Of a DNA stretch of 64,000 nt, positions 24,261 to 53,911 are shown piece after piece. The position numbers and the translations under genes were made by a program. Source of the DNA: Clostridiales bacterium (GTDB taxonomy: Bacteria > Bacillota > Clostridia > Christensenellales > Pumilibacteraceae); assembly GCA_022508445.1 (NCBI GenBank), contig JAFLVG010000002.1, positions 186,001-250,000 of the forward strand, written 5' to 3'. The stretch's first letter is position 1, and each line of letters begins with the position of its first letter. The notes under the pieces were generated by a model. That model saw nothing but the letters and a program-made list of their open reading frames with translations. It did not search any database and had not been told where the DNA came from.

Positions 24261-25049
24261 ATGTCTATATTTAAAAGATTAAAACGCAACGTACCGGAAT
24301 CTTTTGATGGATTCGATAATAAGACTTTCAATCCGCCGACCGGCTTTTCTCGGCGTCAGAGGGTAATGCGGTTTTTCAATACGCCGCGCATTGTCGGCAG
24401 AATGAGCGTTGTCGGAGAAAAAGAATCAAAAGGGCCCGTCGGCAAATATTTTTCAAAATGCGAAACCGACGATAAGATGGGCGAAAAAACGTTCGAGCGC
24501 GCGGAAATACGCATGCTTGATACGGCCGTTCGCGGTGCGGTGCGCGACGCAAGGCTCGAAATCGAAGATATAGACGTTATGATTTCAGGCGATTTGCTAA
24601 ACCAAATGACAACGTCAAGCTATGCCGCGCGTGATATCGGCGTGCCGCATATAGGCATTTACGGTGCATGCTCGACTATGACGGAAGGGCTTATGCTTTC
24701 GGCGACGCTTGTCGATAGCGGATATTTTTCTAATGTTATTTGCGCCGCGTCAAGTCATTTTGCAACGGCAGAACGACAGTTCAGATACCCGTTGGAATAC
24801 GGTTGTCAACGTCCGCCTTATGCGCAATGGACGGTGACCGGCGCGGCGGCGTCCGTAGTATCACAAAATACTGCGGAGACCGAGCGCTTTCCCAAAATTG
24901 TTATGGCAATCCCGGGACTTATTACAGATTACGGCGTAAACGACCTAAACAATATGGGCGCGGCAATGGCACCCGATAATGTTATAATAGCACCATATTA
25001 CGGCAAATATATGACGCTTTGGCACAAAAATACCGTCAAAAGGAGGTGA
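24261..25049 (+). CDS. spoVAD: SpoVAD, N-terminal part of an interrupted gene
   Basis: The first 238 codons are SpoVAD, a thiolase-fold protein that binds dipicolinic acid. GDLLNQMTTSSYAARDIG, FGACST-like GIYGACSTMTEG, SSHFATAERQFRYPLEYG and NNMGAAMAP are all recognisable. After Pro238 the frame runs 24 more codons through foreign sequence to a stop at 25047-25049. The rest of the gene lies 28.5 kb downstream at 53516-53911. Codons 1-238 joined to the downstream 131 codons give a 369-residue protein; B. subtilis SpoVAD has about 338, and the extra length is an N-terminal extension of about 30 residues. There are no internal stops or frameshifts. Confidence 0.95.
   Translation: MSIFKRLKRNVPESFDGFDNKTFNPPTGFSRRQRVMRFFNTPRIVGRMSVVGEKESKGPVGKYFSKCETDDKMGEKTFERAEIRMLDTAVRGAVRDARLEIEDIDVMISGDLLNQMTTSSYAARDIGVPHIGIYGACSTMTEGLMLSATLVDSGYFSNVICAASSHFATAERQFRYPLEYGCQRPPYAQWTVTGAAASVVSQNTAETERFPKIVMAIPGLITDYGVNDLNNMGAAMAPDNVIIAPYYGKYMTLWHKNTVKRR
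24949..24996 (+). other. attL, left recombination junction of the spoVAD element
   Basis: The host sequence ...ATGGCA meets the element at CCCG (24972-24975), shared with the right junction at 53513-53516. The element side contains TATAAT (24983-24988) and CACCAT (24991-24996). CACCAT is the mirror of ATGGTG at 53490-53495, at equal distance from the CC dinucleotide. Confidence 0.85.
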
Positions 25050-25093
25050 TACGGCTATTCAGCCTAATTATATATAAAGAGGAATAACTACTT

Positions 25094-25372
25094 ATGAAAA
25101 ACATTCCGCCGATAAGAAAGCACACGGGCGCTATCGTGTGCGACAGGGCATACATGCAGGGCGATAGGGAGGTTTTGCGGCGCGACTACGCCGACGGATA
25201 TGTCGACCTGATTACATACAATGCCGAAAAGCGCTTATGGATATTCGAAACTTACGCAAAAAAAGAAATACTCGGCATGGATTATGACTTCGAGTATTGC
25301 TTGTCTGTACCGTATTTATGCGGACTGTATTTTGTATCGGCTGTCGTTCTGCGCGAGGTCAAACGCAAGTGA
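25094..25372 (+). CDS. Unknown 92-residue protein at the left end of the element
   Basis: I do not recognise this protein (MKNIPPIRKHTGAIVC...). It is charged, has a short hydrophobic stretch near residues 73-86 and two Tyr-rich segments, and has no clear motif. AAGAGG lies 13 bases before the ATG. In the integrated state it lies directly downstream of spoVAC and the cut spoVAD in the same direction, so the spore transcript would run into it. In the excised circle it would lie about 100 bases downstream of a consensus promoter assembled at attP. It is therefore a candidate recombination directionality or circle-state factor, by position only. Confidence 0.6.
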   Translation: MKNIPPIRKHTGAIVCDRAYMQGDREVLRRDYADGYVDLITYNAEKRLWIFETYAKKEILGMDYDFEYCLSVPYLCGLYFVSAVVLREVKRK

Positions 25373-25398
25373 GCGCTCGATGCCGCACCGAAAGACAG

Positions 25399-26262
25399 CT
25401 ATGAAGAGCTTTCTACAAGATCATATCCGCGTTGATCGAGATTTGAGAATTTGTGGTTGTCGATCGTAGGCGTAAAAACATAATTTTTCGGCAAGGCAGA
25501 CGGGGCATAGCCGGTATACTTTTTGAAGATATCGTTGAAATTGCGTATCGTTCCGAACCCGCATAAAGCGGAAATTTGAGTCATGGAATAATCGCCGGTC
25601 TTTATCAGCTTAATGGCTTTTTGAACGCGCATGCAATTGATGTAATATATAAGATTGACGCCTGTTTTTTCGGTGAATAAACGCGAAACATAGCTGGCAT
25701 TCATATTCATAAACTTTGCCGCATCATCTAATGTATACTCCTCCGCATTAGCTTCTATATCGCAAAGCAAATCGGCGAATTTGTCGTCAATCCCGTCGCG
25801 CAGTTTCTTTTGCGTGGTGGGGAAATCGCGGAACAGCTTTACCATAAGTCCGGTAATCGCGGCAGAAGTTATAATATTATACATGAGTTGCTTTTTCTTC
25901 AACTCGTCCAAAGCGATGTTATACGCTTCGCTGACCGCACCGCCGTTATCGATAAGCGGTGAGCTGAGCGTGATATCGATGGCAAAATCATTTATGATCG
26001 ATCTGTCAAACACCAAAACCAAAAGGAGGGTGGATTCATCGATAGAAGTCATTTGGTGCAGAATACGGCTGTCAAAGAACATCGCATTGCCTTGCGATAT
26101 ACGATAATTCTTTCCGGAAGTAAAAACTTCCATCATACCGCGCTCGACATAAATAAGCTCACACTCATCATGCCAGTGGAGCATATTTTTGGAGTTGCGG
26201 TATTTGCCTACCCAAATACGCTCTCCGTTATAGTATACCCATTTCTCGCGTGCGGTATCCAT
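25399..26262 (-). CDS. AraC-family transcriptional regulator
   Basis: The 287-residue protein has an N-terminal cupin-like sugar-sensing domain (HWHDECELIYVERGMMEV, then a C-terminal cupin edge) and a C-terminal double helix-turn-helix (about 165-265). The latter includes MNASYVSRLFTEKTGVNLIYYIN and MTQISALCGFGTIRNFNDIFKKYTGYAPSA. It faces the galactan operon across 163 bases and is the likely activator. Its promoter is a perfect consensus, and the ATG lies six bases after the -10, so the mRNA should be leaderless. It converges with the 92-aa gene. Confidence 0.92.
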   Translation of the reverse strand: MDTAREKWVYYNGERIWVGKYRNSKNMLHWHDECELIYVERGMMEVFTSGKNYRISQGNAMFFDSRILHQMTSIDESTLLLVLVFDRSIINDFAIDITLSSPLIDNGGAVSEAYNIALDELKKKQLMYNIITSAAITGLMVKLFRDFPTTQKKLRDGIDDKFADLLCDIEANAEEYTLDDAAKFMNMNASYVSRLFTEKTGVNLIYYINCMRVQKAIKLIKTGDYSMTQISALCGFGTIRNFNDIFKKYTGYAPSALPKNYVFTPTIDNHKFSNLDQRGYDLVESSS

Positions 26263-26425: not shown

Positions 26426-29400
26426 ATGAGAATAGGCAAAAAGGGATTGTTAGTGACTGTCATGGTGATGATTGTCACCGCAGTTTTCACTCTTTTGGCG
26501 TGTGGCGAAGCCGAAAAAACGCCGCCCAAGACAACGGCAGGTGCATATTATCTGTCCGTATGCGACGGCGGTGAGTGGCAGACCTACACGTCGGACAGCT
26601 CCATACCTGCGGCAAAGAAGTTTACGCAGGACGCGCAAAATAAATCCGTCTATACTCTTGTTATCGCTCTTGATGAGGGAGCATTGATAAGAATTGCACA
26701 AGTCGGATCTACTGCAACCTACGGCGCCGACGAGCTTTTGAGCTCGCAAGACTACCTCGTAGAGGGCAGCAACAACGCCATATCGGTAGCGGCATCGGGC
26801 ACGTACACATTCACGTTCGACGCGACCGACAATTCTATCACGTATAAGTACAAAGAGAACGGCACGGGCCCCGAAGCTTTGCTTGTGTCAATCGACAACG
26901 TTACGGGTGCTATCACACTCAAATACAACGACACTCCCAAACAGCTGACCGCTACCGTAACTTTCAGTGACACATCGACGTCTTCCGAAGGTATCGAGTG
27001 GGAAAGCTCCGAAACGGGTGTTGCAACTGTTGTTAACGGTCTTATCACACCGGTAAGCGCCGGAACAACCGTAATCAAGGCGAGCTACGCCGATATTGAA
27101 GACACCGTAACCGTACATGTCAACGGTGAAGTCACGATTGCCCCCACAGACTTGACTTTGAATGTCGGTCAGTCGGAGCCCGTTGTCGCAACGGTTGCGG
27201 GTGGCGCTATCATTTACGAATGGGCTTCGTCGAATGAAGACGTAGCGACTGTAACACAAGAAGGCGTAGTCACCGGTCACGCCGCCGGTGAAGCCGAAAT
27301 AACGCTTGCGTATTACGAAAGACCGAATACAACTTTGAAGCGTTTGCCTTGTGCAGTTAAGGTTAACACTCCGGTTTCGAGAATAGATCTCAGTACTACC
27401 AAGTTGACCGTCAGCTTAGATAGTCCTGAAACGCTTACCGTAACTATCTCGCCGGACGACGCGACAAACCAAGAATACAGCTGGGATATTGCGACAGAGG
27501 ACGATGCCGATGCCGCGGATATCGTAAGCGTAACCAAAGCGGGCAAAACGTTGACTATAACCGGCAAGACAGTCGGCACCGTAACGCTCACTGTCACGTC
27601 CGCCGACGACGACACGAAAACCGCAGAGTGCGTCATCAATGTTGTCGAAGCAGGCGAGGCTATTGTCAAAATTGTCGACAGTAACGACGAGGCCGTGGAC
27701 GGAATAACTCTTCACAAAACAACAAACAGCACGGCTACGCTCAAAGTCAGCGTGACCAATGATACTGTTCAGTCCGTTGCATGGCTGAGCAGCACCACTG
27801 CCGTAGCTACCGTAACCGCGTCCGGAGAAACCACAACCGTCACATCCGTAGCGTTCGGTACGACTACCGTTACCGCGACCGTAACGCTCGAAAACGGCGG
27901 CGAGAAGAAAGTAACCTGCAAAGTCCTCGTTGCGCCTTCGACGTTCTATCTGTACGGCGACTACGGTAATCCCACTTGGTCGAGCGATATCGAAAATCTT
28001 ACAGCAAGTAAAATGGTCTTTGCCGAAACCGAGCAAAAAGGCATTTACAAGCTTACATTCGATTTGCTGAACGGTAAGAACTTCCGTATAGGTCATGACG
28101 ACGGCTTCTCAGGTAATGTCAGTAATTGGGCGTGGGTAGGTCTTAACTATGACCGACGCGATCAAGCATCATTTACCGAATTAGGTCTTGATTATGCCGG
28201 TGACAAAGACAACAACATTAAACCTACCGTTTCCGGCAACTACACGCTCACGGTTGATTTAACAGACGGTCTCGCCGTTATATATGCCGTGCGCAACTCG
28301 ATTGCCGTTACCGGCATTACCGTAACAAATACCGGAGCGGTTTCACTTAAAGCCGGTGATCCCGAAAATAATTCAACTACTGTTACGCTTGCCGTTCAGC
28401 CGCAAAATGCTACATATACGGCTGATGACATAACGTGGTCGTGCGCCAACGGCGATGTTACTCTTGTCGAGGCTCCCGGTAAGATGTCGGTCACCGTTAC
28501 CGTCAATGACGACGCGGCTACCGGTAATGCAGTAGTCAAATGCGAGGTCAAAGGCAAAGAGGACAGCGTTACTATTTCGCTTGTTGCGGCGCAAGGCGAA
28601 GTGCAGCTTGCAGACAAAGTAGTGTTCGCGCAAGAGGCATATCAATTCGACGTATCGACAATCACGTGGCAGGACGGCTGGACGGCGACTGTTTCGGCTC
28701 TTGCCAAGACCGAGGACGATGAGCTTGCCACCAATTCGAACGTTGAATATACTTGCGACGACAGCGGTGTTACAGTCAACGCCAATAGCGGTGCAGTTAC
28801 TGCCACTAAACTCGGCACGTATACGATTACGGCAACAGCGTTGGACGGCTCCGGCGTATCGGAAGAAGCGAAGGTGACCTTCTATTCGAAGAAGATTTAT
28901 ATTTCGGGCGACCATAACAGTTGGACTCCCGGATCGAGCGATAACTTTAAGGACGACGGCACTCATAAGACGTTCACGTTAAAAATAATGCTCTCATCGG
29001 GCAACTTATCGATGATTGCTTTTGACGGAATAAGCAGCTGGGATATTAGCGCCATTGTCGCTTCCGATATCGCTCCGGGCTCGGACGCTTCCGCAAGCGG
29101 CAGAAATATTAAGGTTTCGAACACGGGTGTATTCCAACTTACATTGGATTTGTCCGGTCCGAATGCGCAGGTGACGTACAAATATCTCGGAATTGTTTCG
29201 TTAGTGCTTTCTGCGGGCGGTGGTTCGTCATCTGTTAATTGCACACAACTTACGGAAGATTGGAAGTACACTATGACCGCGGTTGCCGAATGCACAGCGG
29301 AAACCGAGTACGGCATCTCTGTTAACAAATTCGGAACTACGATTAACATTACCGATCCTACTAAATTCAGCGGTGCCGCCCTTGAAAAGTTTGATTACGT

Positions 29401-29935
29401 GGCAGCGAACGGTACCTTCAAGTGCCTTGAAGACGGCAAGTATCAAATCGACGTAGTCTTAGACGATGAAGGTGAGTACACCGTAACAATTTCCAAAGTT
29501 TCTCTTGGCGAGGAAAGTACGGCATATTCGGTGTATTTGGAACTTTATTATGATAGCGGTTATTCCGAAAGTTCTGCCGCTGCCTCCAATCCTAAACTTT
29601 ACTTTAATGAAACTACCGGAATATACACGGCTTTCGTTACATTGAATTTGGATAAGGCGTGGAGACACTTCGGCATTACAGTTCGCAGTACGGACGGCAA
29701 AACAACGCATGTAACAATTAAGCCGAACGGAGCTGATAATGGCGCGACGGCAGGTTTTGTCGGAGCAAACACTATCAATGACGCCGGCTTGTTAGATAGC
29801 TCTTTGTACTGGGCTACCGGTTTCTACTCCGCTTCAACGACGTTGTATGTCAAGCTTGAATTTACTGCGGAAGATATTGCTGCCGGTAAAGTAGACACCG
29901 TCACATTTGCAAGCTCTAATTTTGCAGAGGCATAA
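26426..29935 (+). CDS. Large surface lipoprotein with bacterial Ig-like repeats
   Basis: The 1169-residue protein has a signal peptide with a lipobox (FTLLAC, lipidated Cys 26). Multiple BIG2-type Ig-like repeats follow (for example about 150-232, 235-315, 316-410, 620-720 and 730-845), seen from GVATVVNGLITPVSAGTTVI-like cores. Interspersed segments at about 40-145, 505-620 and 860-960 resemble the repeated beta domains of SusE/SusF-like surface glycan-binding proteins. Being first in the galactan operon, it probably holds polysaccharide at the cell surface. I see no catalytic motif. Repeat boundaries are approximate. Confidence 0.8.
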   Translation: MRIGKKGLLVTVMVMIVTAVFTLLACGEAEKTPPKTTAGAYYLSVCDGGEWQTYTSDSSIPAAKKFTQDAQNKSVYTLVIALDEGALIRIAQVGSTATYGADELLSSQDYLVEGSNNAISVAASGTYTFTFDATDNSITYKYKENGTGPEALLVSIDNVTGAITLKYNDTPKQLTATVTFSDTSTSSEGIEWESSETGVATVVNGLITPVSAGTTVIKASYADIEDTVTVHVNGEVTIAPTDLTLNVGQSEPVVATVAGGAIIYEWASSNEDVATVTQEGVVTGHAAGEAEITLAYYERPNTTLKRLPCAVKVNTPVSRIDLSTTKLTVSLDSPETLTVTISPDDATNQEYSWDIATEDDADAADIVSVTKAGKTLTITGKTVGTVTLTVTSADDDTKTAECVINVVEAGEAIVKIVDSNDEAVDGITLHKTTNSTATLKVSVTNDTVQSVAWLSSTTAVATVTASGETTTVTSVAFGTTTVTATVTLENGGEKKVTCKVLVAPSTFYLYGDYGNPTWSSDIENLTASKMVFAETEQKGIYKLTFDLLNGKNFRIGHDDGFSGNVSNWAWVGLNYDRRDQASFTELGLDYAGDKDNNIKPTVSGNYTLTVDLTDGLAVIYAVRNSIAVTGITVTNTGAVSLKAGDPENNSTTVTLAVQPQNATYTADDITWSCANGDVTLVEAPGKMSVTVTVNDDAATGNAVVKCEVKGKEDSVTISLVAAQGEVQLADKVVFAQEAYQFDVSTITWQDGWTATVSALAKTEDDELATNSNVEYTCDDSGVTVNANSGAVTATKLGTYTITATALDGSGVSEEAKVTFYSKKIYISGDHNSWTPGSSDNFKDDGTHKTFTLKIMLSSGNLSMIAFDGISSWDISAIVASDIAPGSDASASGRNIKVSNTGVFQLTLDLSGPNAQVTYKYLGIVSLVLSAGGGSSSVNCTQLTEDWKYTMTAVAECTAETEYGISVNKFGTTINITDPTKFSGAALEKFDYVAANGTFKCLEDGKYQIDVVLDDEGEYTVTISKVSLGEESTAYSVYLELYYDSGYSESSAAASNPKLYFNETTGIYTAFVTLNLDKAWRHFGITVRSTDGKTTHVTIKPNGADNGATAGFVGANTINDAGLLDSSLYWATGFYSASTTLYVKLEFTAEDIAAGKVDTVTFASSNFAEA

Positions 29936-29952: not shown

Positions 29953-31764
29953 ATGGAAAAACAACTTGCACTAAACATTATTCACCGTCCCGAGCTCTCT
30001 CCCGAATATGCGGAGAGAGCTCTCGGGGGGCGAAAGGATGTCACCGACGAATCGCTCGAAATATTTCTGTTTCAGCAGCAAGCCGCGCACAAAAACGGGC
30101 TTAAAACAACCATACATATTACATACGCGTCGCTGTTCTCCGACGAGATAGTCAAGGTCGCCAAAGAACACAATAAAAAATACGGCGACGAGATTGCTAT
30201 GTCGCTGTTGGGACTTCCTTGTAAGCAGTTCAAAGAGAAGTACAAAACCGAGGACTTCTGCATTTGGATGTTCGACGAGAAGACCAAAATGGAGATTATC
30301 GACGACTGTTTCTCGCTGTTTTACGAGAAGTTCGGCTTTTATCCGCAGTCGACGGGCAGTTACTTTCTGGACGCGTTTTGTATCAACTATATCAAGAGCA
30401 AATATCCGTCGGTCAAGTGCGCCGTTGCTACGTGCTGGGAGGAAGGCCCCAAGGCTTACCACACTTGCAACAACAGCTGGTATACGTTCATGGACGGCGG
30501 TCCGTGGAATCCTTGGATACCGTCCAAGATCAACTCGCACTGTCCCGCCTCCGACAAGGACGACGACAGCGGCATAGTTGCCATTCCGCACCTGTCGCGC
30601 GACCTTATGGCGTGCTTTGACGGCAACGGAAGCAACTTCGGCACTCATCCGCAAAACGTTCTTCGCGGCATGATTTACTACAACGACAACGGCTCGATAG
30701 AGTATCCGTACCTTTACAACCTTATCGATCAGTACCGCCATTTGGAGAAGTACAACGACGGGTATTCCTACAATATGATGTTTGTCGGTCCCGGTTGGCT
30801 CAATAAAGCGGGCAGATGGGAAGCGCCGTATGAGCTCCTTGCTAAATCATACGAGGACGGCATGAAGTATTACGGCAAGCTCAAAAAGCAAGGCAAGCTG
30901 CTCGACCTTACCATGTCTGAGTTCGCAGACTATTACCGCCGTCGTCATACCGATTATAAAATGCCCGAGTGCGCGCTGTGGAAGGACATCCTTTACGGAA
31001 GCGACAAGCAGTATTTCTGGCTTGCCGATCCCACAAAGCGCTTGTGCCTTGACTTCAATCAGGGCGGCGCAATGGTTGATCTCAGACCGTATGTCGCGCG
31101 CATTCCGCAAAAGACCGGCATAGGCACAGACGACGTCTATGACGCGTCATATCCGTACCTTATTCAAATAAATTACAGGGCGGGATATTTTACGCACTAT
31201 GCGGGCGCGGGCACGATAAAGTCGTGCAAGGTCAGCTACAAGGGCGAAAGCGCAGACCTTTGCTTGTGCCGGACCATGGCGACGTTTGAAAAGACAGAAA
31301 ACGGCGTTAAGCTTACCGCAAATCCCGTTACGGTCACCATTAAAGGGCTCGATATCGTCATAAAATCCACATATCTTTTTGAGAAATCGGGAAGAGTTGT
31401 CACGACGCGCGAAATAGTGAACGACTTGCACGGCGAAGAAGTGACGATTGAAGAGTATTTCACGGGTGCTTTCGGAACAACCGAATATCAAGCGGATATG
31501 ACTAAACTCACGCTGGGCGTCGGCGACACGTCAATGAAGTACGGGTATCTCGGCAAGAGCATTTCCTCCAAACAAACGAGTAAGCCGCTCGTAGCCTTTG
31601 TTGAGATACCCGACGTAACGACGCGTGTGGAAATGGGCGGCGACGTCGATGAGCTTTGCGTATCGGAGGGAATTGCGTTCTCGCCGGTGTACCATTTGAG
31701 CGTTAAAAAATCATTGCAAAAAGGAGGCGTCACAACGTGGCTCAATCTTCAAAAGGCAAACTGA
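29953..31764 (+). CDS. Unrecognised enzyme-like protein of the galactan operon
   Basis: The 603-residue protein has no signal peptide. The first 330 residues look like a (beta/alpha) barrel of the kind found in glycoside hydrolase/deacetylase folds, with conserved-looking Trp, His and acidic residues (TGSYFLDAF, CAVATCWEEG, FMDGGPWNPW, AIPHLSRDL). The last 220 residues are beta-rich, like a carbohydrate-binding sandwich. I cannot place it in a named family, so a role in processing imported galacto-oligosaccharides is inferred from context only. A long inverted repeat lies in its codons 13-25. Its 3' end overlaps the zinc-ribbon gene by 28 bases. Confidence 0.6.
   Translation: MEKQLALNIIHRPELSPEYAERALGGRKDVTDESLEIFLFQQQAAHKNGLKTTIHITYASLFSDEIVKVAKEHNKKYGDEIAMSLLGLPCKQFKEKYKTEDFCIWMFDEKTKMEIIDDCFSLFYEKFGFYPQSTGSYFLDAFCINYIKSKYPSVKCAVATCWEEGPKAYHTCNNSWYTFMDGGPWNPWIPSKINSHCPASDKDDDSGIVAIPHLSRDLMACFDGNGSNFGTHPQNVLRGMIYYNDNGSIEYPYLYNLIDQYRHLEKYNDGYSYNMMFVGPGWLNKAGRWEAPYELLAKSYEDGMKYYGKLKKQGKLLDLTMSEFADYYRRRHTDYKMPECALWKDILYGSDKQYFWLADPTKRLCLDFNQGGAMVDLRPYVARIPQKTGIGTDDVYDASYPYLIQINYRAGYFTHYAGAGTIKSCKVSYKGESADLCLCRTMATFEKTENGVKLTANPVTVTIKGLDIVIKSTYLFEKSGRVVTTREIVNDLHGEEVTIEEYFTGAFGTTEYQADMTKLTLGVGDTSMKYGYLGKSISSKQTSKPLVAFVEIPDVTTRVEMGGDVDELCVSEGIAFSPVYHLSVKKSLQKGGVTTWLNLQKAN
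29989..30028 (+). repeat. Long inverted repeat inside a coding region
   Basis: CCCGAGCTCTCTCC pairs with GGAGAGAGCTCTCGGG with a two-base bulge and a nine-base loop. It falls in codons 13-25 of the 603-aa gene and would form a strong RNA hairpin near the ribosome start site. Confidence 0.75.
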
Positions 31765-31997
31765 ACTTCCGTTGTCCGTCGTGCTTTATGCGTGATATCG
31801 ACATTGATATGTTTTACGACAGCGATAAAGAAGAGTATTACTGCTTGCGCTGCTGCTTTCACGGCAACGAGGCGCAGGTCGAAGCTTTGAACGAAATGGC
31901 GCGTTACCGCTACGGCAGACTCAAAATGCGCGTGGCAGATTTCGGAGAAGACAACGTGCCTGCCACCTTTGTTTCGCATAAGCGCGGGGAGCAATAG
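31737..31997 (+). CDS. Small zinc-ribbon protein
   Basis: The 86-residue protein has two CxxC pairs (C13/C16 and C36/C39) typical of a zinc ribbon, and a basic C-terminal half. The GTG start at 31737 is preceded by AAGGAGG at the right distance, although it lies inside the end of the previous gene. It ends five bases before the cytosolic galactanase gene. Function is unknown; a regulatory or RNA-binding role is possible. It appears to be cotranslated with its neighbours. Confidence 0.7.
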   Translation: MAQSSKGKLNFRCPSCFMRDIDIDMFYDSDKEEYYCLRCCFHGNEAQVEALNEMARYRYGRLKMRVADFGEDNVPATFVSHKRGEQ

Positions 31998-44392: not shown

Positions 44393-45504
44393 CGGAATAT
44401 ACATATAAAGTGACTGCGGCAGGCAGGATCAACATTATAGGTGAACACATAGACTACTGCGGCGGCAAGGTAATGCCGGCGGCGTTGTCACTGAAAAATA
44501 CGGTATATGTTCGTCCTAACGGAACAAATAAAATAAATTTAAGCTGGACTACGCTCGAAGACAGAGTCACGCTCGATATAGATAAGTTAGAGAGCTATCG
44601 CAATCTCAAATACGGCAATTATCAGGCAGGCGCGGCACTTATGTGGCAAAAAGCGGGACACAATGTGATCGGTTGCGACATGCTTCAAGACTGCACTGTG
44701 CCGTTCGGCAGCGGACTTTCGTCGTCCGCCGCGATAGAGGTAAGCACGATAGCCGCACTCGCGACGCTTGCCGGCGAGCAAATCAATCACGTAGAAATAG
44801 CGCTTGCGGCGCAAAAAGCCGAGCGAGAGTATGCCGGCGTAAACTGCGGCATAATGGATCAATACGCCTCGGCATGCGGAAAGCAAGACTTCGTAATGCT
44901 ATTGGACTGCAACTCGGTGACTTGCGAATATCTGCCGCTTCGGTTGGGTGATTATGCGCTTGTAATCATAAATTGCAACAAGCCGCACAATCTCGTTGAC
45001 AGTAAGTATAACGAAAGGCGCGAGGAAGTTGAGCAAGCGCTCCGCATATTGCAAACGGCACTTCCTGTGTCATGTCTTGCGGAGGTTACCGAACAGCAGT
45101 TCGAGAAATACGGAAGCTTATTGCACGGAAAGGTGTACGACAGGTGCAAGCACGTAGTTGAAGAATGCGCAAGAGTCAATAAAGCGGCGATAGCTATGAA
45201 AAACGGAGATATAAAGACGCTTGGGACACTTCTCAACGCTTCGCACAAGTCGTTGAAAGAGTTGTATGAAGTGACAGGCAAGGAATTGGACGCCCTTGCC
45301 GCCGCCGCGCAAAGTCACCCTGCATGCGTTGGATCGCGAATGACAGGCGCCGGCTTTGGCGGTTGCACGGTGTCACTTGTGAGAAAAGACGGCGTAGAGC
45401 AGTTCAAGCAAGCCGTTGCAAAAGAATATAAGCAAAAAATCGGATATGACTGCAAAATGTACGATGCCGAAATAGCCGACGGCATTACGGTCACTAAATT
45501 ATAG
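44389..45504 (+). CDS. galK: Galactokinase
   Basis: The 371-residue GHMP kinase phosphorylates galactose at C1. Motifs are GRINIIGEHIDYCGG (the family usually has GEHTDY), PFGSGLSSSAAIEV and GSRMTGAGFGGCTV. The start is the ATG at 44389 that overlaps the galT stop; a longer in-frame start at 44284 lies inside galT. It is slightly shorter than the usual 385-390 residues. Confidence 0.95.
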   Translation: MTEYTYKVTAAGRINIIGEHIDYCGGKVMPAALSLKNTVYVRPNGTNKINLSWTTLEDRVTLDIDKLESYRNLKYGNYQAGAALMWQKAGHNVIGCDMLQDCTVPFGSGLSSSAAIEVSTIAALATLAGEQINHVEIALAAQKAEREYAGVNCGIMDQYASACGKQDFVMLLDCNSVTCEYLPLRLGDYALVIINCNKPHNLVDSKYNERREEVEQALRILQTALPVSCLAEVTEQQFEKYGSLLHGKVYDRCKHVVEECARVNKAAIAMKNGDIKTLGTLLNASHKSLKELYEVTGKELDALAAAAQSHPACVGSRMTGAGFGGCTVSLVRKDGVEQFKQAVAKEYKQKIGYDCKMYDAEIADGITVTKL

Positions 45505-45513
45505 GAGGATATT

Positions 45514-46524
45514 ATGAAAATTTTGGTTACGGGTGGTGCCGGATATATAGGCTCGCATACGTGCGTCGAACTGCTGAATAAGGGCTACGAGGTAGTCGTT
45601 ATCGATAACTTCGACAATTCATCGCCCAAGAGCGTGGAGCGCGTTCAAAAGATAACCGGCAAACAAATTGCGCTGTACGAAGGCGATGTCCGCGACGGCG
45701 CGCTTTTGGATAAGATTTTCACACAGCACAAGATAGATTGGGTGATTCATTTCGCAGGGCTTAAAGCCGTTGGCGAAAGCTGTGCAAAGCCCATAGAGTA
45801 CTACGATAATAACCTATACGGCACTCTCGTATTGACGGATAGAATGAGAAAGCACGGCTGCAAGAAAATCGTATTTTCCTCGTCGGCGACCGTTTACGGC
45901 GATCCCGAAGTTCTTCCGCTCACGGAAGAGTGCAAGACGGGCGGAACGACCAACCCTTACGGCACGAGCAAGTATTTCCAAGAAATCATGCTCAACGACA
46001 TCTACAAGTCCGATAACGAATGGACGGTCGTGCTTCTTAGATATTTCAATCCCGTAGGCGCACACGAGAGCGGCCTAATAGGCGAAGATCCGCAAGGAAT
46101 TCCCAATAACTTAACTCCGTATATTGCAAAAGTCGCCATAGGCGCGTTAAAGGAAGTGGGAGTTTTCGGTAACGACTATCCCACGCCCGACGGCACGGGT
46201 GTAAGAGACTATATCCACGTCGTCGATTTGGCAAAAGGACACGTTGCGGCAATAGATAAAATAAATAAGTCCGGCGTGTACACCTACAATCTCGGAACGG
46301 GAATCGGATACTCTGTACTTGACGTGATACACGCATTCGATAAGGCCTGCGGAAAGGATATTCCGTATTCCATAAAGCCGAGAAGAGCCGGCGACATCGC
46401 GGCTTGCTATGCTGACGCGAGCAAGGCGAAGAAGGAGCTCGGATGGGAAGCTACGCTCGGCATTGACGAAATGTGCGAATCGCTTTGGAATTGGCAGACA
46501 AAGAATCCGAATGGCTATAACTGA
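45514..46524 (+). CDS. galE: UDP-glucose 4-epimerase
   Basis: The 336-residue extended SDR enzyme interconverts UDP-galactose and UDP-glucose. It has the NAD-binding GGAGYIGSH motif, SSSATVYG and the catalytic YGTSK, plus the sugar-binding RYFNPVGAH. ATAGGAGG lies before the ATG. It completes the Leloir pathway with galT and galK. Confidence 0.96.
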   Translation: MKILVTGGAGYIGSHTCVELLNKGYEVVVIDNFDNSSPKSVERVQKITGKQIALYEGDVRDGALLDKIFTQHKIDWVIHFAGLKAVGESCAKPIEYYDNNLYGTLVLTDRMRKHGCKKIVFSSSATVYGDPEVLPLTEECKTGGTTNPYGTSKYFQEIMLNDIYKSDNEWTVVLLRYFNPVGAHESGLIGEDPQGIPNNLTPYIAKVAIGALKEVGVFGNDYPTPDGTGVRDYIHVVDLAKGHVAAIDKINKSGVYTYNLGTGIGYSVLDVIHAFDKACGKDIPYSIKPRRAGDIAACYADASKAKKELGWEATLGIDEMCESLWNWQTKNPNGYN

Positions 46525-46560: not shown

Positions 46561-47751
46561 ATGAAGAAGAAAAAATGTATCGCCATGCTTCTCGCAGGCG
46601 GACAAGGCACACGGCTTTTTGCGCTCACAAACAGCGTGGCGAAACCGGCAGTGTCGTTCGGCGCGAAGTACCGCATAATCGATTTTCCTTTAAGCAACTG
46701 CACAAACTCCGGGATAGATACGGTTGGGGTGCTCACGCAGTACCAACCACTCATATTAAATGAATACGTGGGCAACGGCGAGCCGTGGGATCTTGACAGA
46801 AGCTACGGCGGAGTTCACACGCTTCCGCCTTACCAAGCCAAGCACGGCGGCGAGTGGTATAAGGGTACGGCTAATGCTATATACCAAAATCTTCACTTCT
46901 TGAACGAATACGACTCCGAGCATGTTCTTATACTGTCGGGCGACCACATTTATAAAATGGACTACTCGAAAATGCTCGCCGAGCATATCGCGCACAATGC
47001 AGACTGCACGATTGCGGTCATAGACGTACCGGCTGACGAGGCGAGCAGATTCGGAATTATGGATTATGCGGCGGATAAGCATATAATTTCTTTCGAGGAA
47101 AAGCCTAAAAATCCCAAAAGCAACCATGCAAGCATGGGAATATACATATTCAAAAAGGACGTCCTTGTGCGCGAGCTCATATCCGACGAAGCGGATAAAA
47201 ATTCGGTTAACGATTTCGGCAAAAATATAATACCGAATATGCTCGCCGCAAAATGCAAGATGTTTGCCTACCAGTTTGACGGATATTGGAAGGACGTCGG
47301 AACAGTCACAAGCCTTTGGGAAGCAAATATGGATCTTCTCGGGGACAAGCCTGCGTTCGATCTCGACGATTCGTCGTTCAAGATATATTCGCGCAATCAA
47401 CCGTTGCCGCCCTCGTACATAGGTAATACGGGTAAATTTATAAACTCAATTATGACGACAGGCTGTGAAATACACGGCACTGTCATTAACTCTGTTTTGG
47501 GCGAGGGTGTTATCGTAAAAGAAGGTGCGGTTATCGAAAACAGCATAGTCATGCAAGGCACGGTAATCGGCAAAAACGTTAAAATCAATTACGGTATGAT
47601 CGATGAAAATGTTTTAATAGGAGATAACGCAAAAATAGGCGACAGTCAGTCAAGCAAGACGCGAATAGCGCTTGTGGGCAGAAACTCCGACATCAAACCT
47701 CGCACTACCGTCGGTTCGGGCGATATAATTGATAACGGAGGTAAAGAATAA
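46561..47751 (+). CDS. glgC: Glucose-1-phosphate adenylyltransferase, catalytic subunit GlgC
   Basis: The 396-residue enzyme makes ADP-glucose from glucose-1-phosphate and ATP. Motifs are [34 protein letters not shown], a sugar-binding FEEKPKNPK, and a C-terminal left-handed beta-helix. It overlaps glgD by one base, the Bacillus-like GlgC/GlgD pair. It uses the glucose-1-phosphate released by GalT, which connects galactose use to glycogen storage. Confidence 0.95.
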
Positions 47752-48860
47752 TGAAAACACTCGGAATAATTTTCGGCAATCTCCATGATAAAGATATAGG
47801 CGAACTTACCGCCGTGCGTTCTCTTGCATCCGTTCCGTTCGGCGGACGATTTAGACTTATCGACTTTGTGTTGTCAAACATGGTAAACAGCGGAATAACC
47901 AAAGTCGGCGTTATCACAAAAAACAACTATCAATCGCTGATGGATCACGTGGGCAGCGGCAAGCACTGGGATCTTTCGCGCAAAAACGGCGGACTTATAA
48001 TCCTTCCGCCTTACGGCGGCGGAGATAAGGACTTGTACAGTCACCGCCTCGGCGCTATAAAAAATATCGAACAATTTATACGTCACTGCGACGAGGACTA
48101 CGTCGTATTCAGCGACTGCGACAACGTATGCAACATAAATCTCGCAAACGTCGTGCAGACGCATATTGACAGCCATGCCGATATCACGCTTGTCACGCGT
48201 AAGAAGAATTTGACGAATTGTAAGCCGCGCACCATTATTGATATCGACAAGGACGGCAAAGTAGTTAAGGTAGTTAATACCAACAAAGCAAGCGGCGAAA
48301 ACATCGTTTTTGCAAACATATTCGTAATGAACCGCAAGTTCCTTTTGAACCTTCTCGACACGGCGACAGATCTCGGTTACGTCAGCTTTACACACGACAT
48401 ACTCGCAAATGGTTGCAACCAGTACAAAATATTCGCATATATGCAGGACGGTTATTTTGCGAATATAGACAGTTTGAGCAATTATTATAAGCATTCGCTC
48501 GAACTGCTAAACAAAGATATCCGCGACGAGCTGTTTTACCGCGACGGCGCTAACATCTACACAAAAGTCCGCGACAGCGCGCCCTGCCGTGTGGGCAGTC
48601 AAGCAAAAATTACCAACTCGCTCATAGCCGACGGTTGCGACATTCAAGGCGAAGTTAGTAACTCCATTTTGTTCCGCGGCGTTAAAATCGCAAAGATGGC
48701 AAAGATTGCCAACTCAATTATTTTCCAAGACGCTGTGATAGGTGAAGGCAGTAGCCTTAATTGCGTTATTGCTGATAAACTCGTTACTGTGCTTGAAGGC
48801 AGAACTCTCTCCGGGCATGAAACGCATCCTTATTTTATTTCTAAACACGCCGTAATATAG
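47751..48860 (+). CDS. glgD: GlgD, companion subunit of ADP-glucose pyrophosphorylase
   Basis: The 369-residue protein is a GlgC homologue without the conserved GGxGTRL loop; its N-terminus reads LGIIFGNLHDKDIGELT. It keeps FGGRFRLIDFVLSN and the C-terminal beta-helix. In Firmicutes GlgD modulates GlgC. The two genes overlap, so the subunits are probably made together. Confidence 0.93.
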   Translation: MKTLGIIFGNLHDKDIGELTAVRSLASVPFGGRFRLIDFVLSNMVNSGITKVGVITKNNYQSLMDHVGSGKHWDLSRKNGGLIILPPYGGGDKDLYSHRLGAIKNIEQFIRHCDEDYVVFSDCDNVCNINLANVVQTHIDSHADITLVTRKKNLTNCKPRTIIDIDKDGKVVKVVNTNKASGENIVFANIFVMNRKFLLNLLDTATDLGYVSFTHDILANGCNQYKIFAYMQDGYFANIDSLSNYYKHSLELLNKDIRDELFYRDGANIYTKVRDSAPCRVGSQAKITNSLIADGCDIQGEVSNSILFRGVKIAKMAKIANSIIFQDAVIGEGSSLNCVIADKLVTVLEGRTLSGHETHPYFISKHAVI

Positions 48861-48869
48861 GAGCTATAT

Positions 48870-50348
48870 ATGGCAGCAAAAAAGCAAGCAACAAAGTCAA
48901 ACCAAAAGACCGCTATAAAAAAGAAAATACTGTTTGTCGCGTCGGAAGCGTTTCCGTTTGCAGGCACGGGAGGATTAGGCGAAGTAATGGGCAGTCTTCC
49001 CAAGGCCGTAAACGACAGCGGCGAGTACGAGGCGCGCGTAATTCTTCCTTTGTACGGCAGTTTTCCGCAAAAACGGCGCAAGGATTTGCAGTTTGTGTGC
49101 TGGACGTTTGTTGAGCTGTCTTGGCGGCGGCAATACTGCGGTCTTTTCAAAATTCAAGAGGGTAACACCGTTTATTATTTTTTGGATAACGAGTATTACT
49201 TTAAGCGCGATAAGCTGTACGGACACGGCGACGACGGCGAGCGGTTTGCTTTCTTTTGTAAAGCGGTTATTGACATTTTGCCACGGCTCGATTTTAAACC
49301 CGACGTACTGCACTGCAACGATTGGCAAACCGCGCTTGTGCCTATTTATTACAAGCTGTTTTATATGAATTTAGACGCGTATAAAGGCATAAAAACGGTA
49401 TACACAATACACAACATAGAATATCAAGGATGGTTCGACCGCTCGATGATTTCCGACGTGTTCGGCATTCCCGAGCAGGAGTTCGGCAGCATAGAACACT
49501 TCGGTGAGATCAATCTCATGAAAGGAGCGATTGATTATGCCGATATGGTTACAACAGTCAGTCCGACATATGCCAAGGAAATACTCACGCAGGAATACGG
49601 GCATACGCTCGACTATGATTTAAGACGGAACGAGCATAAGCTCCGCGGAATATTAAACGGGGTCAACACGGAAGTGTACAATCCCGAGAAAAACCCTTCG
49701 CTGTTTGCGCACTACTCGGTTAAAAATAAGTCGGGCAAGTCCAAGTGCAAAGCCGAGCTTCAAATAATGTTGGGATTGCCGGTAAGAAGTAATGTTCCTG
49801 TCATTGCCATGATAACAAGACTTGCTTCGCACAAAGGTCTTGATATCGTCAAAGCCGTAATGCCGGAGCTGCTTTCTCGGGATATTCAGTTTATCATGCT
49901 CGGCACGGGTGAACCCGATTTTGAAAACTATTTTAAGTACTTGCAGGATAATTACGGTAATAAGTTGCGCTCGGTAATAGCGTTTAACACAGATTTGTCG
50001 CACAAGATATATTCGGGTTCCGATATGTTCCTCATGCCGAGCAGAACAGAGCCGTGCGGTCTCAGTCAAATGATGGCGTGTCGCTACGGCACTATCCCGA
50101 TTGTGCGAGAAACGGGCGGACTAAAAGACAGTATAACCGACGCGTACAACGGCGACTTCGGCAACGGTTATACGTTTTCCAGGTATGCCGCGGACGATTT
50201 GCTTAACGCAGTAGATCGCGCACTCGGACTGTACACTAGTTTTCCCGAAAAATGGCAGTCGCTCGTCGATAGGGCTATGCGCACGGATTTTTCTTGGAGC
50301 GCAAGCGCAAAAGAGTATATAGCCATGTACAAACAACTTATCGGATAG
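48870..50348 (+). CDS. glgA: Glycogen synthase (ADP-glucose)
   Basis: The 492-residue GT5 enzyme extends alpha-1,4-glucan from ADP-glucose. It has an 18-residue Lys-rich N-terminal extension, then ILFVASEAFPFAGTGGLGEV. The usual KTGGL lysine is replaced here, as I also recall in other Clostridia. DVLHCNDWQTALVP and the C-terminal SRTEPCGLSQMMACRYG follow. No branching enzyme or phosphorylase is encoded in the element, so those must come from elsewhere in the genome. Confidence 0.94.
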   Translation: MAAKKQATKSNQKTAIKKKILFVASEAFPFAGTGGLGEVMGSLPKAVNDSGEYEARVILPLYGSFPQKRRKDLQFVCWTFVELSWRRQYCGLFKIQEGNTVYYFLDNEYYFKRDKLYGHGDDGERFAFFCKAVIDILPRLDFKPDVLHCNDWQTALVPIYYKLFYMNLDAYKGIKTVYTIHNIEYQGWFDRSMISDVFGIPEQEFGSIEHFGEINLMKGAIDYADMVTTVSPTYAKEILTQEYGHTLDYDLRRNEHKLRGILNGVNTEVYNPEKNPSLFAHYSVKNKSGKSKCKAELQIMLGLPVRSNVPVIAMITRLASHKGLDIVKAVMPELLSRDIQFIMLGTGEPDFENYFKYLQDNYGNKLRSVIAFNTDLSHKIYSGSDMFLMPSRTEPCGLSQMMACRYGTIPIVRETGGLKDSITDAYNGDFGNGYTFSRYAADDLLNAVDRALGLYTSFPEKWQSLVDRAMRTDFSWSASAKEYIAMYKQLIG

Positions 50349-50357: not shown

Positions 50358-51344
50358 ATGCAAAGGCAACTGTACGACAGAATTGACGGAAAGGATATTT
50401 ATATTTACACCATTGCGCACGACAATATAGAGGTTGATATTTGCGAAATGGGTGCGCGAATCAACGCAATCAGAGTAAACGGCGTAGATATAGTGCTCGG
50501 ATATAATTCTGTCCGCGACTATCTAGTCGGCGGAGGCTATATAGGCGCTACGATAGGTCGTGTGGCTAATAGGATTGCCGCAGGAAAGTTTTCACTCGGC
50601 GCAAAAAAATACAGCCTAAATACTAATGACGGTAAAAATCATTTGCACGGCGGGATCGACGGATTTGACAAAAAGCTCTTTACTGTTTTGAGTGCAGAAA
50701 AGTGTTGCATCGTCTTGCAGTATATAAGTGATGACGGAGAAGAGGGCTATCCCGGTCGGCTTACATTCACAGCAAAGTTCGGCGTAGTAGATAAAACGCT
50801 GAACATAGACTTTGCCGCGGAGAGCGATAAGGATACTTTATGGTGTCCTACAAACCACGCGTATTTCAATCTCAACGGCGAGCAGAACGGTGATTGCCGA
50901 GATAACTTATTGCAGATAAATGCCGATTACTACACACCTGTTGACGGTGGGCTTATACCGACGGGCGAGAAAAAAGCGGTCAAAAACACTCCGTTCGATT
51001 TCAATGGCATAAAGCAAATCGGTGCTGATTTCGACAGCATTGAGCTTGCATCTACTTTCGGATACGATCATAATTACTTGTTAAACGGTGATCACGCCGC
51101 GCATGTAGAAAGTGAAGTCACAGGCATCAAAATGGATGTTTACACCGATATGCCGTGCTTGCAGCTCTATACAGGCGGTCAGCTTTGCGGCGCAAAAGGC
51201 AAAAACGGCAAATACAATAAATGGGCGGCATTTTGCTTGGAGCCGCAATATTGCCCTAATGCAATAAACATGCGGGGCTTTGCTAAGCCAATATTGAAAA
51301 AAGGTGAAAATAAAATTCATTATATTCGTTACAAATTCGATTAG
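50358..51344 (+). CDS. galM: Aldose 1-epimerase (galactose mutarotase)
   Basis: The 328-residue enzyme interconverts the anomers of galactose, so that the beta-galactose released by the galactosidase can be used by GalK. Motifs are GGYIGATIGRVANRI, HLHGGIDGFDKK, PTNHAYFNLNGE (catalytic His) and a C-terminal CLEPQYCPNAIN with the catalytic Glu. It is the last gene of the operon and is followed by a terminator. Confidence 0.95.
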   Translation: MQRQLYDRIDGKDIYIYTIAHDNIEVDICEMGARINAIRVNGVDIVLGYNSVRDYLVGGGYIGATIGRVANRIAAGKFSLGAKKYSLNTNDGKNHLHGGIDGFDKKLFTVLSAEKCCIVLQYISDDGEEGYPGRLTFTAKFGVVDKTLNIDFAAESDKDTLWCPTNHAYFNLNGEQNGDCRDNLLQINADYYTPVDGGLIPTGEKKAVKNTPFDFNGIKQIGADFDSIELASTFGYDHNYLLNGDHAAHVESEVTGIKMDVYTDMPCLQLYTGGQLCGAKGKNGKYNKWAAFCLEPQYCPNAINMRGFAKPILKKGENKIHYIRYKFD

Positions 51345-51418: not shown

Positions 51419-51454
51419 GTTTATCTTTCATTTCAATAGGATAGAATTTATAAC

Positions 51455-51700
51455 ATGAATGACGGATTGTCAATTAAAGATATTGACCCGAGTGAGTTAA
51501 CGGAATTAAATAATATCAAAATAGACTGCGACGTGCCGATTGCGGAGCGAATTATGAATTTTATTATTAATTCAAAATCATCAAACATGTTTCAAGTCAA
51601 CGGTAGAGCGGTTATAGTGGTGTTTGACAGCTATGCACGGTCGAGTTTGGAGGACGCTCTCACGAATGCGTTAAGAAATATTTTGCTTTCAAAATCTTAA
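51455..51700 (+). CDS. Small protein resembling DUF6870-type partners of serine recombinases
   Basis: The 81-residue protein has the pattern I recall from small proteins near recombinases on clostridial mobile elements: an LxxLNNIKID start, PIAERIMNFI, then FQVNGRAVIVVF and SLEDAL. Those proteins are of unproven function. It lies 81 bases before the recombinase, in the same direction, without a clear ribosome binding site. It could be an accessory or directionality factor. The family assignment comes from memory of the pattern, not a search. Confidence 0.55.
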   Translation: MNDGLSIKDIDPSELTELNNIKIDCDVPIAERIMNFIINSKSSNMFQVNGRAVIVVFDSYARSSLEDALTNALRNILLSKS

Positions 51701-51705: not shown

Positions 51706-51734
51706 TTGCAATTTGCTGAAAAACGATGTATAAT
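51706..51734 (+). promoter_or_regulatory. Promoter of the serine recombinase
   Basis: TTGCAA (51706-51711), a 17-bp spacer and a perfect TATAAT (51729-51734). No sporulation-type promoter was recognised, so expression may not be limited to sporulation. Confidence 0.7.
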
Positions 51735-51780: not shown

Positions 51781-53454
51781 ATGGCAAGACAAAGTAAATA
51801 TTCAACTGTCGATACTGCATCTCAATCACAAAATTGGAATGCGGGTCTTTACATTCGTCTTTCTCGGGAGGACGGAGATAAATTAGAGAGCGAGAGCATT
51901 TCGTCGCAACGCGCTATTATAGAGCAGTTTATTTCTTCCCATAGCGATATAAAGATACATGATTATTATATCGACGACGGTTGGAGCGGTACTGACTTCG
52001 ACCGTCCGGATTTTAAGCGCATGTTCGACGACATAACGGCTAAACATATAAACTGCGTAATAGTCAAAGATTTATCGCGATTCGGGCGTAATTACGTCGA
52101 GGCAGGCAAATATCTCGAAGTAGTATTTCCCATGCTCAACGTGCGGTTTATAGCCGTCAACGATATGATTGACAGCATAGACAATCCGTCGTCTATGAAT
52201 ACGATGATGGTCCCGATTAAGAACATCATGAACGACGAATATTGCCGCGATATCTCTGTAAAGGTGAGAAGTTCGCTCGATATTAGGCGCAAACAGGGCA
52301 AGTTTATAGGCTCGTTTGCGGCATACGGATATAAAAAAGACCATGTCGATCGGCATAAGCTTGTAATAGACGAAGAGGCCGCGGAAATCGTGCGATCGAT
52401 TTACGATAAATTTTTAAGCGGTTACAGCATGATAGGCATAGCGCGCGACCTAAATGCAAAAGGAGTTCTCAATCCAGCCGAATACAAAAAGAGCAAAGGA
52501 CTTAACTACAAGCATGCGCACAAATCACAGAACTGCAATTTGTGGTGCGATACAACGGTTAGGCGCATTCTAACCAATGAAATTTATATCGGCAATCTCG
52601 TTCAAAAGAAAAACGAGGTCGTCAGCTATAAAGTGCATATTTGTAAGAGCGTAGAAAAGAACAAAAATATCAGAGTAGAACACACGCACGAAGCAATTAT
52701 ATCGGAAGATGTATTTTATAAAGTTCAGTCGCTTTTGACGCGCGACACTAGGGTGTCGCCCAAAGAGAGTAAGCTGTCCGTATTTGCAGGTTTTTTGAAG
52801 TGTGCGGATTGCGGTCATGCTATGCAAAAAAAGACCATAACACAGCCGTATAAAAAATACGACTATTACGTTTGTTCTACCTTTCGCAAGCTTGATAACA
52901 ACAAATGCACAAAACATGCTATACGCCTGGATATATTGGAAGAAACAGTCCTCGCCGTATTGAATAAGTACATTCAAATCGCCGTCGATTTCGATAGGAT
53001 TATCGGCGAAATAAATAAGGTAAGTTCGTGTAATAACAAGTCGTCGAGACTATTGGCCGTCATAAGTTCAAAGAATGCGGAAATAAAATCGACTAAGAAA
53101 ATTTTACAAGATTTATATCCGGACTATAAAGCCGGATTGTTGAGCTTGGAAAGCTATATGTCGCTTAAAGAACAGTACGAAAGAAAAATCGAAAGCGACG
53201 AAAAAACGATTTCCGAGTTAGAAGCGGAAGTCGAAAATTATTCGAGCAGAATAGGCGAAAATAACGAGTTTATCGCCAAATTCAAAGAGCATCGCGGCCT
53301 TACCCAACTTACGCGTGAAGTACTTATAGAGCTTGTTGACAACATTTATATTCACGAAGGCGGTGCAATCGAAATACATCTTAAATGTCGCAATGAATTT
53401 TTAGCGGCTACCGAATACGTGTTTAACGGGATTTACAACAAAGAAAGTGTATAA
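51781..53454 (+). CDS. Large serine recombinase of the spoVAD element
   Basis: The 557-residue protein has an N-terminal resolvase domain with the catalytic Ser 28 in YIRLSRED, SQRAIIEQF and VKDLSRFGRNY. A recombinase DNA-binding domain (about 185-300) and a zinc ribbon (CADCGHAM...YYVCSTFRKL, about 337-375) follow. A coiled coil (about 415-500) and a C-terminal tail complete it. This is the arrangement of TndX, TnpX and SpoIVCA. The stop lies 59 bases before the CCCG of attR. A GAGGG site precedes the ATG. It is the obvious candidate to insert and excise the element. Confidence 0.95.
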   Translation: MARQSKYSTVDTASQSQNWNAGLYIRLSREDGDKLESESISSQRAIIEQFISSHSDIKIHDYYIDDGWSGTDFDRPDFKRMFDDITAKHINCVIVKDLSRFGRNYVEAGKYLEVVFPMLNVRFIAVNDMIDSIDNPSSMNTMMVPIKNIMNDEYCRDISVKVRSSLDIRRKQGKFIGSFAAYGYKKDHVDRHKLVIDEEAAEIVRSIYDKFLSGYSMIGIARDLNAKGVLNPAEYKKSKGLNYKHAHKSQNCNLWCDTTVRRILTNEIYIGNLVQKKNEVVSYKVHICKSVEKNKNIRVEHTHEAIISEDVFYKVQSLLTRDTRVSPKESKLSVFAGFLKCADCGHAMQKKTITQPYKKYDYYVCSTFRKLDNNKCTKHAIRLDILEETVLAVLNKYIQIAVDFDRIIGEINKVSSCNNKSSRLLAVISSKNAEIKSTKKILQDLYPDYKAGLLSLESYMSLKEQYERKIESDEKTISELEAEVENYSSRIGENNEFIAKFKEHRGLTQLTREVLIELVDNIYIHEGGAIEIHLKCRNEFLAATEYVFNGIYNKESV

Positions 53455-53489
53455 ATACATTCTGATATATAAAAAATCTTAATTTTTTT

Positions 53490-53537
53490 ATGGTGTAATA
53501 TTGACAGCAGCCCCCGCCGCAATGGACACCATGTTCA
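53490..53537 (+). other. attR, right recombination junction of the spoVAD element
   Basis: The element end contains ATGGTG (53490-53495) and TTGACA (53501-53506), then the shared CCCG (53513-53516). Host spoVAD sequence (GCC GCA ATG GAC) follows. Together with attL it defines the crossover. Confidence 0.85.
53501..53506 (+). promoter_or_regulatory. -35 half of a promoter completed only on the excised circle
   Basis: TTGACA lies 12 bases from the CCCG. On the circle it is exactly 17 bp from TATAAT at 24983-24988 (6 bases from this end, 11 from the left end). In the integrated state neither half has a matching partner: 17 bp downstream of this TTGACA is GGACAC, and 17 bp upstream of the TATAAT is GCGGCA. 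Confidence 0.75.
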
Positions 53538-53911
53538 CCATGTTAACCCAATCGGGCTATACGGAAAATGACTTCGATTTGATAGTAACAGGTGATTTGG
53601 GCAAGCTCGGATCGGACATTCTGCGAGATTTGATGCGAAAGCGCGGAATTAAGCTCGGTCAAAATTATATCGACTGCGGTAATATAATCTACGACGTAAA
53701 TCAGAAATGCTATCAAGGCGGTAGCGGTTGTGCTTGTTCGGCAACTATATTCAATTCATTTATCATGGATAAGTTGATGAGCGGCGAGTACAAACGCATA
53801 GCGTATCTTGCAACTGGTGCGCTTATGAGTACGCAAAGCTGTTATCAAGGTGAAACTATCCCGTGTATATCGCACGCGGTGATAGTGGAAAGTCCGTACG
53901 GAGGGAAATAA
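53516..53911 (+). CDS. spoVAD: SpoVAD, C-terminal part of the interrupted gene
   Basis: The 131 codons from 53516 continue SpoVAD: AAMDTMF, FDLIVTGDLGKLGSDILRDL, DCGNIIYDV, GGSGCACSA, YLATGALMSTQS and GETIPCISHAV are family hallmarks. The frame stays open 5' to a TTG at 53501 within the element, but there is no good ribosome binding site, so this part is unlikely to be made alone. The sequence shows no decay. Joined to 24261-24974 it gives a full-length protein. It precedes spoVAE by one base. Confidence 0.95.
   Translation, partial: AAMDTMFTMLTQSGYTENDFDLIVTGDLGKLGSDILRDLMRKRGIKLGQNYIDCGNIIYDVNQKCYQGGSGCACSATIFNSFIMDKLMSGEYKRIAYLATGALMSTQSCYQGETIPCISHAVIVESPYGGK

Follow-up and report, generated by a model that had tools for sequence, protein, structure and literature searches.

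In the 64,000 nucleotides of a Clostridiales bacterium analysed here (contig JAFLVG010000002.1, positions 186,001 to 250,000, hereafter the window), the sporulation gene spoVAD is split by a 28.5-kb island which carries its own large serine recombinase. The island is likely excised during sporulation, and is predicted to be put back later; the probability of this reading is, in our estimate, about two in three. The features on which it hinges are the following.

23787-24260, forward strand: spoVAC (TIGR02838 match of 138 bits, curated cut-off 164; start picked by comparison)
24261-24974, forward strand: spoVAD 5' part, codons 1-238 (PF07451 profile positions 3-205)
24972-25000, forward strand: putative attachment site attL, core CCCG (24972-24975) plus left element arm ending CACCATATT; similar arms in relatives
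51455-51700, forward strand: DUF6870 protein of 81 residues (PF21757), candidate recombination directionality factor (inferred function)
51781-53454, forward strand: large serine recombinase of 557 residues (PF00239, PF07508, PF13408, PF14287)
53489-53516, forward strand: putative attachment site attR, right arm TATGGTGTAATATTGACAGCAGCC plus core CCCG (53513-53516); from arm comparison
53516-53911, forward strand: spoVAD 3' part, 131 codons and stop (PF07451 profile positions 201-329)
53913-54287, forward strand: spoVAE (TIGR02839 match of 111 bits, curated cut-off 131)

spoVAD breaks off after codon 238 (CCC, 24972-24974). The 5' part ends in NMGAAMAP, and is followed by 24 foreign codons and a stop at 25049. 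The gene restarts in frame 28,541 bp on, at 53516, with GCC GCA ATG GAC ACC, and continues to 53911. Neither half contains stops or frameshifts, and the rejoined reading frame is open across 369 residues, a sporulation gene being interrupted and its halves rejoining in frame as in sporulation gene-intervening elements. The two halves are the sole SpoVAD (PF07451) matches in the genome of the window (G000, 1.78 Mb, 96% complete), in which a second spoVAD was not found. The original prediction, made from the letters of the window, had placed the cut after codon 238 and the remainder 28.5 kb away, which coordinates and PF07451 halves bear out; the uninterrupted gene obtained on joining at CCCG, spoVAE after the 3' part, and the large serine recombinase next to the right junction were likewise all found, and the second complete copy which would have spoken against it was not. 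The size of the insert stands with a small correction, the insert being 24975-53515 (28,541 bp) if CCC is assigned to the left.

The recombinase gene ends 58 bp upstream of the core. Resolvase, recombinase and zinc-ribbon domains are all present in its product, as is typical of large serine recombinases; among proteins of solved structure, TnpX and the SPbeta integrase YokA, the latter solved as a fusion to YotN, are nearest to it in sequence. YokA/YotN correspond to SprA/SprB. Open reading frames (ORFs) similar to the DUF6870 gene end 57-149 bp upstream of the recombinase in 17 of the 22 loci scanned, a count which omits the copies in the window and in the related genome G014, both found separately; none was shown at loci L046 or L052. 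By this position beside related recombinases, the DUF6870 protein is a candidate directionality factor. At some loci two or more related recombinases are arranged in tandem, as pairs (L043, L051, L054, L059) or arrays (L055-L057). At L124, L131 and L132 related recombinases lie directly upstream of collagen-like Gly-X-Thr repeats; these repeats may belong to BclA-like genes of the spore surface, which would add a possible target.

Sequence comparison assigns the window island to a family of elements sitting at one spoVAD codon in uncultured Clostridia. Within the genus (20 genomes) spoVAD is split at the same codon in three (G000, G014, G018), and one genome gave no match; one intact spoVAD, which the original prediction had proposed to look for in relatives, is present in the other 16. 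In G018 a single contig spans both junctions and the 24.7-kb element between them, whose genes are ordered as in the window island, with glgCDA missing; in G014 the halves are on two contigs, each adjoining matching element genes. In a tree without support values, built from nine genes or gene parts next to the site, the spoVAD parts among them, G000 comes out as sister to the intact G016, and G014 plus G018 as sister to the intact G011. Since each is sister to an intact species, the element has been gained or lost more than once. A contig scan retrieved 27 recombinase loci, 16 of which continue into the spoVAD 3' part, 14 with spoVAE; L033, L042 and L052 are the loci of G018, G014 and G200 (split), and L044 ends at the core. 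No spoVAD was found in the available flanks of L055-L057. At L045 (979-3283) it is the 5' part of spoVAD, not the 3' part, that the recombinase faces. At L048 (1398-3942) a DUF6870-like ORF and a truncated recombinase lie directly upstream of a spoVAD which is intact; they may be remnants of an element lost since.

Recombinases at least 50% identical to that of the window were seen, among the matches listed for 61 relatives, only in G000, G014, G018 and G042; a search of 396 genomes of the order brought in G181, G188 and G200, and one of 391 genomes of the class nothing more. All seven genomes have spoVAD split at this site (in G042, 51% complete, the 5' part only was seen). In 24 further genomes with recombinases of 36-47% identity, spoVAD is intact in 19, gave no match in four, and is split in G402 (44%). 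The 19 intact genes limit the link to the near subfamily, G402 being an exception. In G045 contig ends lie inside spoVAD; the case was discarded, as these ends are away from the site.

The junctions share the short core CCCG, and arms flank it at both ends, as known from intervening elements. Left arms resembling that of the window occur in G018, G014, G042, G181, G188, G200, G402 and at L040, and approximate AATGNTATAATANNACCATAA. The right arm reads TATGG(T/C)(G/C) in 13/13 usable rows of a first comparison, from which the G014 row was left out, and in 3/4 of a second, in which two of the four rows repeat L038 and L059; TTGACA comes next in 10/13 and 4/4 rows, respectively. Right and left arms form an imperfect dyad, matching at 16 of 29 positions in the window, 19 in G018 and 15 in L040 (shuffle p 0.012, 0.0002 and 0.014). 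Near-identical right ends (L043/L051/L053; L049/L050) diverge into different host spoVAD sequences exactly from the core. The alignments point to the CCC/CCT codon of the APAA motif as the crossover point.

While split, both halves of spoVAD evolve under strong purifying selection, as do the corresponding parts in intact pairs. The ratio of nonsynonymous to synonymous substitution rates (omega) and the synonymous divergence (dS) were calculated by the Nei-Gojobori method with a script of our own, mainly for G014-G018, both split and at dS about 1; pairs with G000 are near saturation, and were left out. Omega is 0.034 for the 5' part and 0.038 for the 3' part, to be compared with 0.035 for spoVAC, 0.026 for spoVAE, 0.098 for the recombinase and 0.056 for galT, and with 0 to 0.063 for the spoVAD parts in four intact pairs where dS is finite. 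The low omega of both halves implies that spoVAD is needed while split, and agrees with the earlier suggestion, drawn from the lack of stops and frameshifts, that selection still acts on the gene. The dS of galT (0.97) and of the recombinase (1.04) falls inside the interval spanned by the spoVA genes (0.82-1.98). The element thus probably predates the divergence of G014 and G018.

Excision with rejoining of spoVAD is, in our estimate, highly probable. Recombination of attL with attR would restore spoVAD, and would reconnect spoVAE to its promoter. Alone, the recombinase is expected to favour integration; the adjacent DUF6870 protein would turn it to excision. Three promoters are of concern.

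23642-23672, forward strand: spoVAC promoter of the forespore type, CGTATA-N16-GACAAATTA, conserved in 19 genus genomes; sigma factor predicted
51419-51448, forward strand: predicted sigma-F-type promoter GTTTA-N15-GGATAGAATT upstream of the DUF6870 gene; post hoc, unsupported by the host spoVAC matrix
51706-51734, forward strand: putative sigma-A-like promoter TTGCAA-N17-TATAAT upstream of the recombinase gene; by eye, against the general consensus

spoVAD is in the sigma-G regulon (PMC12536801). The DUF6870 protein, if made from a sigma-F-type promoter, would trigger excision in the forespore, a short time ahead of the transcription of the spoVA operon by sigma-G. Sigma-F-like sites at -40 to -28 of the DUF6870 start occur in 8 of 12 non-redundant elements versus 3 of 30 control starts (Fisher p 4.9e-4), the consensus being that of B. 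subtilis. sigF, spoVA and sigG-like genes are present in the host, and conserved forespore-type promoters are found at spoVAC and, by eye, at sigG; in 19 of the 20 genomes of the genus the sigG-like gene reaches 346-362 bits, under the curated cut-off of 457. In G014 and G018 sigF had been flagged as a pseudogene because of one TAG, which lies upstream of the start, and the notion was rejected. A forespore timing imposed by DUF6870 is a proposal we hold only tentatively.

Since spoVAD is a forespore gene, its excision would be a germline event, and the chromosome which is cut would be the one that survives; either reintegration or incomplete excision would then be needed for inheritance. The usual logic of excision in a doomed mother cell does not carry over to a sigma-G-dependent gene. 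In the complete cycle, extended to the whole family, sigma-F would drive DUF6870, spoVA would be restored, the spore would carry the excised circle, for which no replication gene was recognised, and reintegration would take place at outgrowth. We regard such a reversible germline cut as slightly more doubtful than the timing, and reintegration is both its weakest and its most interesting point. If true, this would be, to our knowledge, the first such switch in a cell that becomes the spore, and a reversible genome rearrangement in the surviving cell, unlike the known mother-cell cases.

Several data speak against this picture. Excision itself was not observed. attB and attP are absent from the assembly of the window genome, and attP was not found in viral contigs. 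A whole SpoVAD more than 90% identical to the joined protein was not found (best 90%). Recombinases of 63-64% identity at L034-L037 have no spoVAD in the available flanks. The structural model of the DUF6870 protein (predicted local distance difference test score, pLDDT, 77; predicted template modelling score, pTM, 0.55) has no PDB match at E <= 0.001, and omega is 0.37 over 78 codons, a weaker constraint than elsewhere. The promoter test is post hoc, because the position window was chosen after a first look at the data, and a matrix of host spoVAC promoters revealed no enrichment upstream of DUF6870 (Fisher 30.7, 24 degrees of freedom). Stable inheritance is, finally, hard to explain with a forespore target unless the element reintegrates.

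Excision may alternatively be unrelated to development, and occur at any moment in a minority of the cells as a form of phase variation, so that only excised cells finish sporulation. We consider this unlikely. The sigma-A-like promoter assigned by eye to the recombinase would fit, and the yin element of yabG has been reported in both states in culture (PMC10747680). One species looks to be represented both split and whole in a comparison made on cluster representatives only, which also counts in favour of the main reading. The whole protein P0001 is encoded on one 1,570-bp contig, the split P0111 on ten contigs of up to 517 kb; their N parts share 233 of 234 aligned residues, apart from a single gap of four residues, and P0122, which reads through the junction, shares 131 of 132 residues with the 3' part of P0001. 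Strain difference and excision both fit. In G048 contig ends meet at the crossover, two contigs overlapping by exactly 141 nt from the crossover codon; this is indirect, and is what an assembly graph holding both alleles would be expected to give. The sigma-F-like sites in front of the partner gene do not favour excision independent of development. A different product, P0051, has the N part of the P0111 species (191/191) fused to a 3' part that stems from another lineage; misassembly may account for it.

In a second alternative, SpoVAD functions as two chains, its N and C parts being synthesised separately and then associating, so that excision would be unnecessary. Both parts are conserved. 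Orphan halves are many, and speak for the main reading. The 3' part as query retrieved 252 proteins of 75-238 residues; among 120 listed, 62 begin at the junction, 51 at joined position 236 and 11 at 234, three of them on contigs longer than 200 kb (P0123, P0163, P0200). Joined position 236 is natively Met too, and an arm of the L043 type provides that ATG. An in-frame ATG, GTG or TTG lies upstream in 15 of 17 right junctions and is absent in two (L046, L047), but no Shine-Dalgarno-like motif precedes any of the 17. With these signals missing, the 3' part probably does not form a separate gene, and its independent translation is disfavoured. The spoVAD 3' part and spoVAE would moreover lack a promoter, and recombinase and attachment arms have been retained at the site. 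We hold two separate chains to be very improbable.

About as improbable is the view that an ordinary integrative island broke spoVAD in hosts which no longer need the gene, and that the halves are decaying. The assemblies are drafts of the metagenome-assembled type, and sporulation of the hosts was not observed, but the constraint on both intact frames at dS about 1, the presence of sigF- and sigG-like genes, and the divergence of the element together with its hosts all speak against decay. A split spoVAD may be misread as sporulation loss in genome surveys. An assembly artefact, a threat acknowledged by the original prediction and suggested by drafts in many contigs, is practically dismissed, a chimera being very unlikely because splits at the same position occur in two other species and the G018 element is whole on one contig; the same codon and arms recur in many separate assemblies, and some orphan halves are on contigs longer than 200 kb.

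spsM, spoVFB and yabG act in the mother cell. Together with sigK and gerE they are the targets of intervening elements named in PMC10747680 and PMC5595907, gerE and yabG being additional to the three listed by the original prediction. spoVAD was not found as a target in a literature search of incomplete coverage, without preprints and with few subscription papers, in keeping with the novelty claimed for it by the original prediction. The targeting of terminal cell lines has been argued to ensure vertical transmission (PMC5025042), and a stable element in spoVAD raises the question of how it is inherited if it leaves the chromosome of every spore.

The model put forward here is that of the skin element of sigK in Clostridioides difficile (PMC5025042), whose large serine recombinase is expressed constitutively and whose small directionality factor is controlled by sporulation. 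skin is however prophage-like, resides in a mother-cell gene, and has its factor under sigma-E and SpoIIID, whereas the island is predicted to depend on sigma-F in the forespore. gin in gerE of Bacillus cereus ATCC 10987 (PMC5595907) is, as the island, non-phage, of similar size (28.6 kb), endowed with serine recombinases and inserted in a sporulation gene, and needs a partner protein, GirX. It differs in having three recombinases, a target which acts in the mother cell, and excision shown experimentally. SPbeta in spsM of B. subtilis (PMC10747680, PMC5595907) has a related integrase, and restores a sporulation gene by excision, but is a full prophage, and no phage gene was recognised in the island. 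yin in yabG of Clostridium botulinum (PMC10747680), found in two states in one culture, shares the small candidate directionality factor, but is prophage-like, known in one strain, and has another target. The comK prophage of Listeria (PMC5025042) undergoes regulated excision in a non-terminal cell, as a forespore gene would require; it is an active phage with another target and no sporulation link. Mobile DNA has been linked with spoVAC, spoVAD and spoVAE (PMC6907783), spoVA being there cargo, and here a split target. The islands GI153 and GI175 list SpoVAC/AD/AE as cargo in that source; some of these entries could be target fragments at element edges.

The island carries genes of galactan and glycogen metabolism, and its remaining content is listed below.

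25094-25372, forward strand: ORF of 92 residues, no Pfam family, 55% identical in G018
25399-26262, reverse strand: AraC-type regulator (Pfam scan)
26426-29935, forward strand: large protein with Big_2 domains (Pfam scan)
29953-31997, forward strand: two ORFs without family, 603 residues (29953-31764) and 86 residues (31737-31997), 90% and 88% identical in G018
32003-33112, forward strand: GH53 galactanase (family match)
33161-38345, forward strand: sugar ATP-binding cassette (ABC) transporter, with binding protein, two permeases and MsmK/MalK-type ATPase (family matches)
38342-40975, forward strand: GH53 galactanase with Big_2 domains (family match)
41068-43011, forward strand: GH42 beta-galactosidase (family match)
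43028-46524, forward strand: galT, galK, galE (family matches)
46561-50348, forward strand: glgC, glgD, glgA (family matches), not found in the G018 element
50358-51344, forward strand: galM (family match)

If the proposed excision occurs, metabolic genes are riding on a developmental switch. Pfam and NCBIfam recognised no phage structural or replication genes in the scanned element proteins (PHROGs not searched), and no relaxase or conjugation genes among the island proteins; a ParA-like gene was noticed by eye at the start of the G042 element. A phage origin was rejected, as viral contigs yielded neither a confirmed relative of the recombinase nor attP; matches in phage and plasmid collections are all below 60% identity, the best among those listed being 40%. 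The 603-residue protein, without Pfam or NCBIfam family, is among the best conserved cargo proteins. Related gene clusters occur elsewhere. G011 hosts, outside spoVAD, an MsmK-GH53-GH42-galTKEM cluster 63-93% identical to the cargo (L165, 61-10470), a partial galactan cluster which adjoins dnaG and rpoD and has no recombinase match. In G001, which lacks the element, relatives of galE and galM lie between sigF and spoVAC (L090, 3817-5826). The spoVAD element at L040 (3450-11723) is 8.2 kb long, and its cargo resembles, by eye, glmM, glmS and a CapD-like epimerase; if they are the only copies, this element could hardly be lost.

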